Shown one piece after another: positions 48,848 to 64,000 of a DNA stretch of 64,000 bases. Location: NCBI RefSeq assembly GCF_001719045.1, contig NZ_CP015423.1, positions 186,001 to 250,000 of the forward strand. Reading direction: 5' to 3'. Source of the stretch: Paenibacillus polymyxa (lineage in GTDB: Bacteria > Bacillota > Bacilli > Paenibacillales > Paenibacillaceae). A program made the translations under genes and the position numbers. The first letter of the stretch is position 1; each line of letters starts with the position of its first letter. Under the pieces are notes generated by a model, which worked only from the letters and a program-made list of their open reading frames with translations, was not told the origin of the DNA and made no database searches.

Positions 48848-49012
48848 CATGCGCTATTGCTACTTGAAGCTAGGGCTACAATGAAGTATGTACAGGAGAG
48901 ACTTGGACATAGTAGCATCCAAATAACAGCCAACGTTTATGCACACATCTCCAAAAAAATAGAGATGAATAGCATGGAGAACTATGAGTCTGTTACTGAA
49001 AATTTATTCTGA
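48848..49012 (+). pseudogene. C-terminal remnant of a phage-type integrase
   Basis: Reads HALLLLEARATMKYVQERLG, HSSIQITANVYAHIS and a short tail to TGA. This is the end of a tyrosine recombinase: the box II region (HALLLLEA), the catalytic His in RLGHSS and the nucleophile Tyr in ANVYAHIS. The amino-terminal 300 residues are gone. Its 3' end points at the glnA-derived attachment sequence 120 bases away. Confidence 0.85.
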
Positions 49013-49022
49013 TAATAAAATT

Positions 49023-49313
49023 TTTGGGGGCAATTAGGGGGGCAATTATAAATAAACTTAATAAATTTTTTTACCTACCACAAACAAAAAAATCCCTCAA
49101 CGCTTTGAGCGCCAAGGGATTTCCCATTTTAGTAAAGAGTCAGATATTGATCGCGTTCCCATTGATGAACCTGTGTTCTGTTTATGTACGAATTTATCGT
49201 TTCATCTTCTCCTATATTAGGATAACGATTTATAGAATATTTCATCAGAAGCGTTGTTCACAATCTATCATAACTTTTCATGAGTTGGGGGACATTTGGG
49301 GGATGCTTAGGGG
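49023..49313. other. attachment-site region: duplicated glnA 3' end with flanking G-run repeats
   Basis: Minus-strand 49180-49129 encodes RTQVHQWERDQYLTLY and TAA, the C-terminal end of type I glutamine synthetase, without the rest of glnA. The normal terminator follows at 49085-49125 (AAATCCC/GGGATTT then T-run). Clusters of G-runs (TTGGGGGCAATTAGGGGGG at 49023-49041 and three GGGGGA repeats at 49283-49313) flank it and may be recombinase arm sites. Interpreted as an att scar left by integration at the glnA 3' end. Confidence 0.7.
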
Positions 49314-49615: not shown

Positions 49616-49828
49616 TTGAAAATCTCCCGTGGGAGATGCCGACTTAAGGAGTTACTCGAAGAACGTCGTATAAAACAAATCGATCTTGCTAGGCGCACAG
49701 GCTACAGCAGACATTTGATATCCAATTGGGCCAACAATCAGGATAAAATGTCGGCTGATGTTATGATTAACGTAGCCTATGCTCTCGATTGTAGAATAGA
49801 AGACTTATACGAACTGATCTTTGAGTGA
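49616..49828 (+). CDS. XRE-family HTH regulator (Cro/CI-like)
   Basis: 70 aa, only the helix-turn-helix domain: LKELLEERRIKQIDLARRTG, then SRHLISNWANNQDKM. TTG start eight bases after GGAGG. Typical of phage and element control regions. Confidence 0.88.
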   Translation: MKISRGRCRLKELLEERRIKQIDLARRTGYSRHLISNWANNQDKMSADVMINVAYALDCRIEDLYELIFE

Positions 49829-50053: not shown

Positions 50054-50086
50054 ACAAAAAAAGAGTCGCTATTTCGTAGCAACTCC
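50054..50086 (-). terminator. terminator of the agr-like operon
   Basis: GAGTTGCTA-CGAAA-TAGCGACTC then TTTTTTT on the minus strand; the stop codon of the LytTR gene lies in the loop. Confidence 0.8.
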
Positions 50087-50464
50087 TGTGAAGATTATTT
50101 TTGAATTTATGAAGCCCATTTCTTCAACAACCTCGTCAAATCGGTGGTAAGCGATTGGACACCTTTTTGATGTTTTTGTTATTTCATCTTCAAAGTAAGC
50201 ATCTTTGAAAATACCATTAACGATTTTCACTTTTTCTACATTAAGAGTATTACTTCTGTCCACATTCAAAAAGCGAAATCCGTTACAATTCAAAAAGTTT
50301 TCCCAATGTCTCAAGGTACCTACCATATAGTATGTTTTATCAAATGTGTGAACCAGTATCTGATCTCGCTTTCTCCCCTTAGAAATGAAAAGAACTTTGT
50401 CCACTTGAACATTTTCGCCTTTTTCTATTCCTCCGGGATCTGCTGATACGGTTAAACTTAGCAT
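50069..50464 (-). CDS. free-standing LytTR DNA-binding regulator
   Basis: 131 aa made of a short lead and one LytTR domain: VQVDKVLFISKGRKRDQILV, then YYMVGTLRHWENFL, GFRFLNVDRSNTLNVEKVK and PIAYHRFDEVVEEM follow the family pattern. AgrA-like regulators normally carry an amino-terminal receiver of about 120 residues; none is present, so phosphorelay control is excluded. It is the last gene of the operon membrane protein-agrB-agrD-lytTR. GGGGAATGTTAA precedes the ATG. Probably regulates the operon itself through the inverted repeat at 51793-51825. Confidence 0.85.
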   Translation of the reverse strand: MLSLTVSADPGGIEKGENVQVDKVLFISKGRKRDQILVHTFDKTYYMVGTLRHWENFLNCNGFRFLNVDRSNTLNVEKVKIVNGIFKDAYFEDEITKTSKRCPIAYHRFDEVVEEMGFINSKIIFTGVATK

Positions 50465-50478
50465 TTAACATTCCCCGC

Positions 50479-50625
50479 TTACTTTAACAATTCTTTTGGT
50501 GGTTCGGGACTGTGAATCCATGACAGACTTGCCGTACTCACTGATGCAACCGCAAGTGTTGTCAACATTGCAGCAACATTGTAATACATACTTGCCTTCA
50601 CTTTACTTGGTTTGGTTTTCTTCAT
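50479..50625 (-). CDS. agrD: AgrD-like autoinducer precursor with Ser in place of Cys
   Basis: 48 aa: MKKTKPSKVKASMYYNVAAM, an amphipathic middle, then STASLSWIHSPEPPKELLK. The tail PEPPKELLK matches the charged C-terminal leader of AgrD (compare PKEL in staphylococci). The residue that closes the ring in AgrD is Cys; here SLSWI aligns with it, so a lactone rather than thiolactone ring is expected. AAGGAGGTG precedes the ATG, which lies 22 bases inside the agrB end. Too short for length-based gene calling. Confidence 0.85.
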   Translation of the reverse strand: MKKTKPSKVKASMYYNVAAMLTTLAVASVSTASLSWIHSPEPPKELLK

Positions 50626-51157
50626 TTTTCACACCTCCTTCTATTAGTGTTAAACTCTGAACAAAAAAACTAGCAGCTACTACCGAATAACCCAACCACA
50701 GATTTAGAGCAACAATTGCAACTCCCGTAAACTTTAGCAACGGATAGTACTGCTTTGATATACGTGTCTTCCCCTCTATCCGCGATGGCGCGTAAACCAA
50801 GATAAGTACAATACTTATTATCGACGTAATAACGATCCAATTGTAATTAAAACTTGCGAAAGATAAAGCAGTAAGTAGAACTGTAGATACAACAATACAC
50901 ATTATATTGCTCTTTAAATGTATCCCTCCTACAATTTGACGCAACACTGAAAAAGATATCATCGCTAACAAAGTTTCCTGCATCCTGTCCGTAAAAAACG
51001 AGATACCGATAGTCAGTAAAATAATTGAAACTGTATTGATCGCAACGGATATCCCGTGTTTTAGAACATCTATAGATGAAGGATGATCAGGGACAACTGT
51101 TTTGATGTGAGTTGCAATATTAAGAGCGATAGTGTCAAGACTTTTTATAGTAATCAC
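50603..51157 (-). CDS. agrB: AgrB-like peptide-processing membrane protease
   Basis: 184 aa, multi-pass, with the conserved RQIVGGIHLKSNIMC: His and Cys seven residues apart, as in AgrB (His77/Cys84), which cleaves AgrD and forms the ring. Start is GTG 51155-51157, overlapping the membrane-protein gene by 23 bases; the ribosome site GGAGC is almost adjacent, so a slightly later near-cognate start is possible. Overlaps agrD. Acts in the membrane. Confidence 0.9.
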   Translation of the reverse strand: MITIKSLDTIALNIATHIKTVVPDHPSSIDVLKHGISVAINTVSIILLTIGISFFTDRMQETLLAMISFSVLRQIVGGIHLKSNIMCIVVSTVLLTALSFASFNYNWIVITSIISIVLILVYAPSRIEGKTRISKQYYPLLKFTGVAIVALNLWLGYSVVAASFFVQSLTLIEGGVKNEENQTK

Positions 51158-51767
51158 GCTCCGTTTTTAATGCATAATACAAAAACATGGCAGATGCTAA
51201 GGCTATAAATAGAATACTTAAAAAGAAATTATTGACGTAAAACATAAATGCACAAGCTGCCAATACTCCTATTATTAAAATAATAACGAGTACATACTCC
51301 CACTTAAAACGTAGATTCTCATAATCTGCTGTAAAGCCTATTTTAAATTTATACAGAAACCACGAAATAGCTAACACCCACGCACTGGTAACCGCTTGCG
51401 CTAACGATCCTTCTGCAGAGGTCTGCATTTCTGTTGTTAAGGTACCAAAAAGCATTAATATAATCGCTGCTTGGAATAATGTATACAAAAATGTGCCTGT
51501 AATGGATATGATGGCTGCCCAAATAATCGGCATCCTAACAACAGTGGTTATCAATAACGTGAACAATATAATGTTTATGGTTGGAGCAAAGAAAGCTAAA
51601 GAAGTTTCTTCCCTTAAAATGAAACTTTGCAAATTCATTATCAATCCAATAAACAATGCAGGCCATACATAGTCTAAAGCCCTAACTCTGAAAATAGTTA
51701 ACATTAAAACGAACGCTGCAAATGTTTCTACAATTGAGAAAAGCAAGAACCTAATAGGCTCCCACAT
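51135..51767 (-). CDS. multi-pass membrane protein, AgrC-like sensor without kinase
   Basis: 210 aa with six to seven membrane helices (for example FLLFSIVETFAAFVLMLTIF, INIILFTLLITTVV, YVLVIILIIGVLAACAFMF) and only a short polar tail (KTERDYYKKS). It resembles the amino-terminal half of AgrC receptors but has no HisKA/HATPase part. By position it should sense the AgrD product and control the LytTR regulator directly, as membrane inhibitors do in LytTR regulatory systems. AAGGGG before ATG 51765-51767 decides the start. Confidence 0.78.
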   Translation of the reverse strand: MWEPIRFLLFSIVETFAAFVLMLTIFRVRALDYVWPALFIGLIMNLQSFILREETSLAFFAPTINIILFTLLITTVVRMPIIWAAIISITGTFLYTLFQAAIILMLFGTLTTEMQTSAEGSLAQAVTSAWVLAISWFLYKFKIGFTADYENLRFKWEYVLVIILIIGVLAACAFMFYVNNFFLSILFIALASAMFLYYALKTERDYYKKS

Positions 51768-51792
51768 AACACATAACCCCTTCACATAATTG

Positions 51793-51838
51793 GTAACAAA
51801 TATGCTTTAATTCTATATTTGTTACTTGTTAGAGGCAA
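51793..51838 (-). promoter_or_regulatory. agr-like operon promoter with overlapping inverted repeat
   Basis: TTGCCT (51833-51838) and TAGAAT (51810-51815) have a 17-base spacer on the minus strand. GTAACAAATA (51793-51802) and TATTTGTTAC (51816-51825) form a perfect ten-base inverted repeat; one arm fills the spacer, the other covers the expected start site. This geometry suits an autoregulatory operator. Confidence 0.65.
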
Positions 51839-51891
51839 TCCAATTACCATGTTAAATGGAAGTATTTATGTATTATGTGAGGTAATTATTT

Positions 51892-62238: not shown

Positions 62239-62580
62239 TTATACAGATTTAATTTTATTTGGGTTAAATTCTTCCCATGCTTTTTGGACAGCCGCTTCGA
62301 CCTCTTCCGGCTTGATAGATACGCCGATCTGATCCATCTTGACAGTCAGGTACTTAACAGCTTCGTGAAATTTTTCTGCACCAGCTCCAGCATAATTACG
62401 CTCTACCCATGAATAGGCGTCTTGGGCCAGTTGTCCAATTCTGTTGCGCTGCTCGATGCTGAAACGTGCTTCATAAATTGGCTTAACTTTGCGATACAAG
62501 GAGGCCGCCAGTATAAGCATACCAAGCGTACCAAGTCCAATCAGTGACAGCGTAATATTTGTGATATATTGTTCGATCAT
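62239..62580 (-). CDS. phage holin, LLH family
   Basis: 113 aa: one amino-terminal membrane helix (ITLSLIGLGTLGMLILAASL) and a helical cytoplasmic part with RIGQLAQDAYSWVERNYAGA, which is the Holin_LLH pattern. Last gene of the lysis cassette, starting two bases after the lysin stop. Confidence 0.85.
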   Translation of the reverse strand: MIEQYITNITLSLIGLGTLGMLILAASLYRKVKPIYEARFSIEQRNRIGQLAQDAYSWVERNYAGAGAEKFHEAVKYLTVKMDQIGVSIKPEEVEAAVQKAWEEFNPNKIKSV

Positions 62581-62582
62581 AG

Positions 62583-63413
62583 TTATTTATCCCCCTTGAG
62601 AATGTTTTGGCGTAGACGACTTAGAGCAGCAGCCGCTTCTTCTCGTGTGATTGGAGCGCCGGGACGCGTTCCATCAAAGTAACCATTCTTGGTCATTTCC
62701 TCCCATACATCTGCTGCCCACGGGCTAACCTTGTTAATGTCTCTCTGCTTTTCTGTCACTGTATTTTCCCCCTTCTTGTTGAACCGCGTCCGCAATTCGT
62801 CCGCCGTACCGTCAAACTCATTCAGATCCACATTTCCAGCGATGCCCTTAATCTTACCGCTATCGCTGTACTGCCAAATATCCCAACGTTTCCACGTCGC
62901 TGTGTCGCTCGGGACGCGAGTATCACTGTACCGGGCTATCCAAAGCTTGTACCCACCCAATGAGGCGTTAAAGTTAGCAGCAAAGGCATTACCTGTATAG
63001 ATAATAGGCTTTCGTCCAGTGAGGCGTTCCAGCTCTAAGAGAAAGGCCAACGCTACCGCGCTAATGAGCGTTTTGGATAGATTGCCGGGATTGTTTTCAT
63101 AATCCATCACTGCTGGAAGGTCCAGCGCTTTTGCGCCGCCAATCTGCTCCAGCACTTCAGCGAAATGCCTTGCTTCCGCTTTTGCAGCTTCAACGCTGGT
63201 TGCATCGACAAAATGGTATGCTCCCAGTAACACCCCGGCAGCCCTGGCCCCTTTTGCATTCGTAATAAATGTCGGATCGACATAACGTTGCCCCTGGCTG
63301 GCCTTAATGAAGGCAAATGAAATTCCGTCCGCTTTGACCACCTTCCAATCAATATTGCCCTGATAGCGAGAGACGTCTATCCCCTGCGCGTTACCTTTTT
63401 TCCTTGTCTGCAT
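62583..63413 (-). CDS. GH25 lysozyme (endolysin)
   Basis: GH25 muramidase: GIDVSRYQGNIDWKVVKADG, FAFIKASQG, GAYHFVDAT, the catalytic DxE in PAVMDYENNPG, IIYTGNAF and WDIWQYSDSG. After residue 220 there is a short SLH-like segment (WAADVWEEMTKNGYFDGT). 276 aa from ATG 63411-63413 behind GAAGGTGACG. Cuts peptidoglycan for phage release. Overlaps the upstream holin gene by 23 bases. Confidence 0.93.
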   Translation of the reverse strand: MQTRKKGNAQGIDVSRYQGNIDWKVVKADGISFAFIKASQGQRYVDPTFITNAKGARAAGVLLGAYHFVDATSVEAAKAEARHFAEVLEQIGGAKALDLPAVMDYENNPGNLSKTLISAVALAFLLELERLTGRKPIIYTGNAFAANFNASLGGYKLWIARYSDTRVPSDTATWKRWDIWQYSDSGKIKGIAGNVDLNEFDGTADELRTRFNKKGENTVTEKQRDINKVSPWAADVWEEMTKNGYFDGTRPGAPITREEAAAALSRLRQNILKGDK

Positions 63414-63846
63414 TTTCCCCGTCACCTTCCTTTTCTCCGCTTTTACTCTTTAAAACTTCCACAGCCTGCCGAATGATCGACGGGACTGGCGCACCAAGCC
63501 TGCCGCCATTTTCAACTATCGAAAGCAGCTCATTTGCCATATAAAAATAGGCAACCGCATCCCGGAATAGGTGCGAATCGCCTAAGACTCCATCAATTAG
63601 ATGGGATACAGCAACCATTGCAAAAATAAAAACCTTTCGGGCAATACCGATCAGGCCGATCTTACTTTTCAAGCCGGGTCCGGTTCCCTTCTTACCCTCG
63701 GCTCCCGCCGCGAACAGCCCTGTCACATAATCAATAATGACCAGTGCAAGCAACACCCCCAATACTCCCGACCACCCACCGTAAAAATACGTCACAGCGC
63801 TGCTCCCTAAAGCAGTGCTGAACTTAAAAACCTCCCACTTATCCAC
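63391..63846 (-). CDS. phage holin family protein (phi29/TcdE-type)
   Basis: 151 aa from GTG 63844-63846 behind GGGGGAAG; helices VLGVLLALVIIDYVTGLFAA and GIARKVFIFAMVAVSHLIDG with the GL/KS/K motif (GPGLKSKIGLIGIARK) of holin_4 proteins. It overlaps the lysozyme gene. Confidence 0.88.
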   Translation of the reverse strand: MDKWEVFKFSTALGSSAVTYFYGGWSGVLGVLLALVIIDYVTGLFAAGAEGKKGTGPGLKSKIGLIGIARKVFIFAMVAVSHLIDGVLGDSHLFRDAVAYFYMANELLSIVENGGRLGAPVPSIIRQAVEVLKSKSGEKEGDGENADKEKR

Positions 63847-63868
63847 CTTGCTTCCCCCGTCTCTTTGT

Positions 63869-64000
63869 TCAGGAAACTTTTCCTGAGCTATCATCGTCTG
63901 TTTTCTGATCCTTTTCCTCTTGGGCCTGTATCTCTGCTAATGCATTTCCTACTGCTATATCTAATCCCTCAAGTATTTCTTTACGTTTATGTGGTTGTGA
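63869..64000 (-). CDS. phage protein, C-terminal part, cut by window edge
   Basis: Reads QPHKRKEILEGLDIAVGNAL to DDDSSGKVS and stop, 43 codons, ending 22 bases before the holin start. Hydrophilic, coiled; no family can be named from this much. Confidence 0.55.
   Translation of the reverse strand, partial: SQPHKRKEILEGLDIAVGNALAEIQAQEEKDQKTDDDSSGKVS

Follow-up and report, generated by a model that had tools for sequence, protein, structure and literature searches.

How can an Agr-type operon read its own peptide signal if it encodes neither a kinase nor a receiver domain? The question is raised by four genes on the minus strand of a 64,000-nucleotide stretch of the Paenibacillus polymyxa genome (positions 186,001 to 250,000 of contig NZ_CP015423.1; this whole stretch is referred to as the window, and its coordinates are used unless stated otherwise). 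The operon spans 51767-50069 and encodes, in order, a seven-helix membrane protein (7TM), an AgrB-type peptidase/cyclase, an AgrD precursor and a LytTR DNA-binding protein. We consider it probable, although well short of certain, that this is a prophage operon in which the matured peptide switches the receiver-less LytTR protein directly via the kinase-less 7TM, with no phosphotransfer.

Four genes without a kinase or a receiver

51135..51767, minus strand: 7TM, 210 aa, without a kinase part; ATG start behind AAGGGG
50603..51157, minus strand: AgrB-type peptidase/cyclase, 184 aa; PF04647, E 2.7e-18
50479..50625, minus strand: AgrD precursor, 48 aa; TIGR04223, E 1e-7, above the cut-off
50069..50464, minus strand: LytTR DNA-binding protein, 131 aa, receiver-less; PF04397, E 8.5e-6

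An earlier note on this DNA had described four genes with no kinase or receiver among them, and reading frames, Pfam, TIGR04223 and AlphaFold identified all four as such. AgrB and LytTR both scored above their Pfam cut-offs. The 7TM gene overlaps that of AgrB by 23 bp, as AgrB does that of AgrD, and 14 bp separate AgrD from LytTR; an alternative upstream GTG start at 51785 would give a 7TM of 216 aa. The AlphaFold model of 7TM (mean pLDDT 90.2) consists of seven long helices only, and neither it nor Pfam showed a histidine kinase domain in the 210 residues. The Pfam search of 7TM returned no family at E ≤ 1, and so no match to DUF3021 or DUF2154 either, and the only Pfam match in the 131-aa regulator was LytTR, with none to a receiver domain. 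Since kinase and receiver are both absent, these four genes alone cannot make up a phosphorelay, as the note had also stated. The catalytic residues of AgrB were conserved when counted by eye, with the His of the GG-x-H motif kept in 27 of 27 aligned copies and the Cys in 26, the sole exception being a broken copy (L060).

The note had called for a search for this gene order in other genomes, and the order does recur. Of 75 genomes from the genus, 23 had relatives by the LytTR profile (E ≤ 1e-6), as did 132 of the 394 family genomes. A census was started from the LytTR matches listed in the family search, together with LytTRs met in other fetched loci; it comprised 205 places, or 164 distinct ones after removal of identical DNA, and left out three listed rows (G107:C24, G264:C20 and G257:C24). 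Among the matches listed, to which all the census counts refer, the complete 7TM-AgrB-AgrD-LytTR order was found at 130 of the 164 distinct bare-LytTR places, in Paenibacillaceae, and its recurrence exceeds chance. A search of the 164 census loci with a single AgrC-type sequence matched no kinase. The 164 LytTR frames range from 113 to 185 aa, which leaves no room for an added receiver, and the 208 7TM frames reach 275 aa at most. Matches to the 7TM profile came from 219 of the 388 family genomes searched; the class-wide search gave 32 of 398, of which 16 lie outside the family.

The incomplete places were of several kinds. At 11 of the 164, 7TM and LytTR were present with AgrB absent (8) or partial (3), and at four, 7TM and AgrB occurred with no recognised AgrD (two of these, L150 and L227, are each the second LytTR in a locus). 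AgrB was present with no 7TM matched by the profile at seven places: L054 is a second, tandem LytTR, L167 and L187 have a divergent 7TM on reading, and L151, L191, L202 and L212 were classed by profile, without reading. The cassette may also be duplicated (L011 and L012, from Paenibacillus ottowii; L047 and L048): two copies lie about 60 kb apart on one contig, and the same genome has a second type, again in two copies, with about 38 kb between them.

AgrD was recognised at 139 of the census places. The ring pattern fits 112 of these precursors, with Ser in most, Cys in 13 and other residues in 6. The predicted ring of the operon studied is SLSWI, with Ser replacing Cys, and the mature peptide would therefore be a serine lactone.

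The membrane protein and the LytTR protein as a pair

The note had treated the membrane protein and the LytTR protein as a pair, and reduced loci that retain just these two genes support it. In L126, L127 and L132, agrB and agrD are gone and 7TM and LytTR are separated by 28-37 bp; the similar flanking genes of the three are most simply explained by a single ancestral loss. The ratio of non-synonymous to synonymous substitution rates (dN/dS) between L126 and L127 was 0.11 for 7TM and 0.05 for LytTR, and it was 0.07-0.14 for either against L132, with dS near saturation. In another reduced pair, L130 and L131, the values were 0.21 for 7TM and 0.05 for LytTR. The low dN/dS in L126, L127 and L132 indicates that selection kept 7TM and LytTR without an adjacent signal gene.

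Distances among the 130 complete loci are consistent with this. The partial correlation of LytTR with 7TM distances given AgrB was 0.51, and that of LytTR with AgrB distances given 7TM was 0.30, so that LytTR tracks 7TM more than AgrB although the AgrB gene is nearer; linked genes share history, which counts against leaning on these values as more than supportive. The loops of 7TM have seven basic residues in the three on one side and none in the three on the other, which suggests an N-out, C-in topology. With this orientation, the inner loops are the more conserved (2.98 bits vs 2.07 bits for the outer three). Variable outer and conserved inner loops are the pattern that would be expected of a receptor reading diverse peptides and sharing a common inner partner. 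The conclusion that 7TM and LytTR behave as a pair is thus supported.

Could the operon instead be a decaying, functionless remnant of Agr? The 11 places at which agrB is absent or partial would be in keeping with decay, but 130 loci are complete, dN/dS is well below 1 and the catalytic residues are kept, and we regard this explanation as highly improbable.

Another explanation detaches the two proteins: 7TM would export the peptide, confer immunity to it or serve as its decoy, and LytTR would activate its own operon, or phage genes, without a ligand. The frequent occurrence of 7TM-AgrB-AgrD without LytTR and the existence of orphan LytTR genes fit this account. It accommodates poorly the 11 places that keep 7TM and LytTR despite a lost or broken agrB, with purifying selection on both genes in three of them, and the homology of 7TM to a sensor domain (see below). 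We consider it distinctly unlikely, and direct coupling of 7TM to LytTR remains our preferred reading.

Origin of the operon and its host and prophage setting

The earlier note had pictured an Agr signal grafted onto a LytTR/inhibitor switch, and it is here that our analyses led elsewhere. By homology, 7TM corresponds to the sensor part of an AgrC-like protein; among solved structures, the LytTR profile is closest to AgrA. Furthermore, loci exist with the same gene order and more of a relay. In L287, of the Aneurinibacillus type, a domain with the AgrC fold is fused to 7TM and a receiver is present on the regulator; L292 has the receiver only. Based on these three lines, loss from an Agr two-component system accounts for the operon better than grafting does, and it most likely descends from an AgrC-AgrB-AgrD-AgrA operon through loss of kinase activity, of the kinase domain and of the receiver. 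The L287 locus is itself a point on the other side: its model is poor overall (mean pLDDT 54; beyond residue 331, blocks reach 58-81), and the similarity of its C-terminal sequence to kinases is weak (probability 22). A different arrangement was noticed once, in L293 (169-2411), where 7TM-AgrB-AgrD-LytTR is followed by a regulator with receiver and LytTR domains (REC-LytTR) and a GHKL kinase gene.

AgrB is encoded at three places in the host genome (5.76 Mb), at 155.7 kb, 236.7 kb (the operon studied) and 4946 kb, and a kinase-less membrane protein precedes it at all three. The first and third (L007 at 155.7 kb and L008 at 4945.6 kb) have 7TM-AgrB and an AgrD-like gene, with no recognised LytTR. 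The 7TM of L007 is of a divergent type; where its relatives occur in other genomes (L167, L187), LytTR follows some 1 kb after AgrB. L008 sits between an acyltransferase-like gene and rsmD, so not every copy is phage-borne.

The genome-wide kinase scan covered one ATPase family, GHKL (PF14501), and gave 12 matches, none beside the operon; the nearest is 730 kb off, or 595 kb if the contig is circular. A trans-acting kinase of a non-GHKL kind may exist; phosphorylation of this LytTR protein by a kinase in trans would lack a target, because it has no receiver. At 3.532-3.534 Mb (L009) the genome does encode a GHKL kinase paired with a REC-LytTR regulator, in the manner of AgrC and AgrA, and the AgrB search of the genome found no AgrB there. 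By eye, the pair adjoins a beta-lactamase-like gene. This kinase and regulator without agrBD could make the operon a means of interfering with a host relay, if 7TM paired with a host AgrC-type kinase or LytTR competed for host REC-LytTR sites, and a comparable use of host AgrA has been proposed for phage phiCDHM1 in the part of PMC3901668 available to us. The kinase is, however, 3.3 Mb distant and not matched by the 7TM profile, and the four genes recur family-wide as a unit. Interference of this kind therefore seems improbable to us, and a small minority view beside that of a self-contained operon.

The surroundings of the operon, whose prophage setting had been missed in the earlier reading, point to a phage. 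To its right are tail, tape-measure, portal, major head and terminase genes, with holins and an endolysin within the window at 62239-63894, and an integrase gene (phrog_1, E 5.1e-75) lies with a repressor-like one beside glnA (L323:13069-14750). The other end is probably marked by a repeat:

49129..49181, no strand: putative prophage attachment site, a repeat of the glnA 3' end, 53 bp with 88.7% identity, 29 bp exact

Judged by this repeat, 49129-49181 is likely the attachment site, in which case the prophage would cover about 68 kb (about 235.1 to 303.6 kb of the contig), and the operon would lie about 1 kb in from one of its ends. Just outside the putative site, 48857-49012 encodes a 51-aa remnant of an integrase C-terminus, perhaps the trace of an older element. 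Between the site and the operon, a small Cro-like helix-turn-helix (HTH) gene (49616-49828) is convergent with LytTR. We considered this gene as a member of the system and rejected it, since, of the 132 places where enough sequence was available, only 26 have a relative downstream of LytTR, at about 180-750 bp (25 convergent, one on the same strand).

Phage protein families matched 7TM (E 8.7e-8, in a family labelled moron), AgrB (1.2e-31) and LytTR (3e-5). A scan of viral contigs with the 7TM alignment found 28 with 7TM, of which 27 have AgrB and 24 have LytTR, the other four ending before it; in 18 of the 28, 7TM lies within 5 kb of a contig end. As a single query 7TM matched no phage record. 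The AgrB query matched eight, and the four examined, Abouo, Emery, Davies and Paisley, have 7TM and AgrB together with a gene of 38-42 aa and a LytTR-like gene of 118-122 aa, close to an integrase or recombinase gene. The 7TM, AgrB and LytTR profiles matched in all four of these isolated phages, and the AgrD profile weakly in three (E 0.005-0.007, not Paisley); the LytTR match was above the Pfam cut-off in Abouo and Paisley and below it in Emery and Davies. Emery and Davies have two tandem 7TM genes upstream of AgrB, both profile-matched (L326 2547-3948 and L328 2544-3948). We also noted that the PHROGs family of these LytTR-like proteins, phrog_15081, is labelled "peptidase" and that Paisley_41 (L327 4645-5001) is annotated as an aminopeptidase; by Pfam it is LytTR. 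A plasmid, pHD02 of Paenibacillus sp. IHB B 3084, has the cassette between glnA and lexA (L018 3675-5396), and the annotation of 10 kb around it contains no phage structural gene.

Proposed mechanism and comparison with known systems

In the mechanism we favor, AgrB would cut AgrD and close it into a serine lactone, which would be bound by 7TM on the outside. The conserved inner loops of unliganded 7TM would keep LytTR at the membrane, and binding of the peptide would release it. Free LytTR would then activate its own operon promoter, perhaps via the following candidate operator, and possibly phage genes too.

51853..51885, minus strand: candidate operator, a 33-bp box ahead of the operon that is conserved among 12 aligned upstream regions

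As the box has a single match in the genome at ≤ 3 mismatches, no wider regulon is proposed. Within the mechanism, direct coupling of 7TM and LytTR is the better-supported step; that the peptide releases LytTR, as opposed to capturing it, we infer by analogy with the streptococcal LytTR regulatory systems (LRS). The sign could be the opposite, with peptide-bound 7TM capturing a LytTR that is active at low density and off as the peptide accumulates. All of the evidence for direct pairing fits this equally and nothing fixes polarity, but in the only studied analogues, the streptococcal LRS, the resting membrane protein inhibits its regulator, according to the sections of PMC6193735 at hand. We consider the opposite sign unlikely and retain release as the preferred polarity.

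Several observations weigh against the mechanism as a whole. LytTR was recognised at only one of the three host AgrB loci, and the model leaves the other two unexplained; 7TM-AgrB-AgrD without a recognised LytTR was also seen at L084 and L235, and in a second family at 8 of 13 fetched loci (four others have a bare LytTR and one a REC-LytTR). It follows that 7TM may have other partners. At L106, L115 and L117 the third gene, first scored absent, resembles a divergent LytTR below the Pfam cut-off (E 0.02-0.001), and some absences may therefore be detection failures. Conversely, LytTR occurred without 7TM and AgrB at 10 of the 164 census places; two more places lie at an edge (ten of these 12 were read individually, and L144 and L138 classed by profile only). 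The inner C-terminal tail of 7TM (204-210), which is outside the loop count, is variable (1.76 bits). At the promoter, the 33-bp box is kept at L084, one of the 12 aligned regions, which has no LytTR gene. Sites of LRS are described in the same sections of PMC6193735 as direct repeats of about 9 bp, 11-13 bp apart, just upstream of -35. We tested 53 LytTR-type promoters, with transcription starts unmapped, for 9-bp direct repeats at periods 9-44 and for inverted repeats, and LRS-like repeats were not enriched, with z of 1.6, 1.6 and -0.1 at periods 20, 21 and 22 and higher values at the unrelated periods 9 and 33. Since no LytTR-typical period stood out, such repeats are not claimed. By eye, phage lysis-like genes and/or a Cro-like HTH adjoin seven of the orphan bare LytTR genes (L154, L175, L188, L218, L224, L228 and L231).

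More tentatively, and with slightly less than even confidence, we see in this operon a new mode of peptide reading, in which a receptor gates a transcription factor by membrane contact. The mode would have evolved by stripping Agr of its kinase and receiver, and temperate phages would have spread it as a signal from lysogen to lysogen, close to the integrase end of the genome, the copies without agrB and agrD being listening-only cheaters or eavesdroppers. If this is true, phosphotransfer is dispensable for membrane-receptor quorum sensing, and present-day genomes still record how the relay was lost, from L287 (kinase fold and receiver) through L292 (receiver) to the 130 places with neither and the 11 with 7TM, LytTR and an incomplete agrB. 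The loci lacking agrB also lend themselves readily to testing whether cheating or eavesdropping occurs when phages communicate. In addition, a switch made of LytTR and a membrane protein would gain a defined ligand; to our knowledge, none is known for the streptococcal LRS.

With Agr (AgrBDCA) the operon shares AgrB with its catalytic His and Cys, AgrD, a transmembrane relative of the AgrC-like sensor and an AgrA-like LytTR domain. It differs in having no kinase domain or receiver, in the order 7TM-B-D-LytTR, and in the ring Ser, not Cys, of most of its AgrDs (93 of the 112 fitting the pattern). The layout of the streptococcal LRS (HdrRM, BrsRM), which the earlier note had recognised here, holds in part. 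A receiver-less LytTR with a membrane protein lacking an enzyme domain is common to both, but the membrane gene here is upstream of the regulator, with agrB and agrD between, whereas LRS have the regulator gene first (PMC6193735, sections at hand). The operon also encodes a peptide signal, and its 7TM has no DUF3021 or DUF2154; LRS direct repeats were not detected among the 53 promoters. The same sections of PMC6193735 count some membrane proteins of other kinds as LRS-like and describe Bacteroides "LRS-like" operons with the membrane gene first.

Phage-borne agrB and agrD are shared with phiCDHM1, Davies, Emery and Abouo (Hargreaves et al. 2014, PMC3901668, cited here from a part of its text). 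Membrane proteins without HATPase were already noted there in Davies, Emery and Abouo, and that part does not mention their LytTR gene; phiCDHM1 differs in having an AgrC with a HATPase domain and no regulator. Two phage genome papers (PMC4909266 and PMC4168068) list the AgrB gene, and the word LytTR is absent from their main texts. A 2025 review (PMC11945551), as far as its accessible text goes, states that agr-bearing phages lack AgrA and mentions LytTR proteins for Pseudomonas phages only. Among titles and abstract starts of the open-licence literature, no paper on this four-gene system was found.

A search of the four operon proteins and the neighboring HTH with a model of AimR, the receptor of arbitrium (AimR-AimP), matched the HTH alone, at 24.4 bits against a cut-off of 70. 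Arbitrium has a cytoplasmic receptor and an imported linear peptide. The operon described here shares with it a peptide signal encoded in temperate phages of Bacilli and differs in its predicted membrane receptor and predicted cyclic peptide; if our interpretation is correct, a cyclic-peptide phage signal would be added beside arbitrium.
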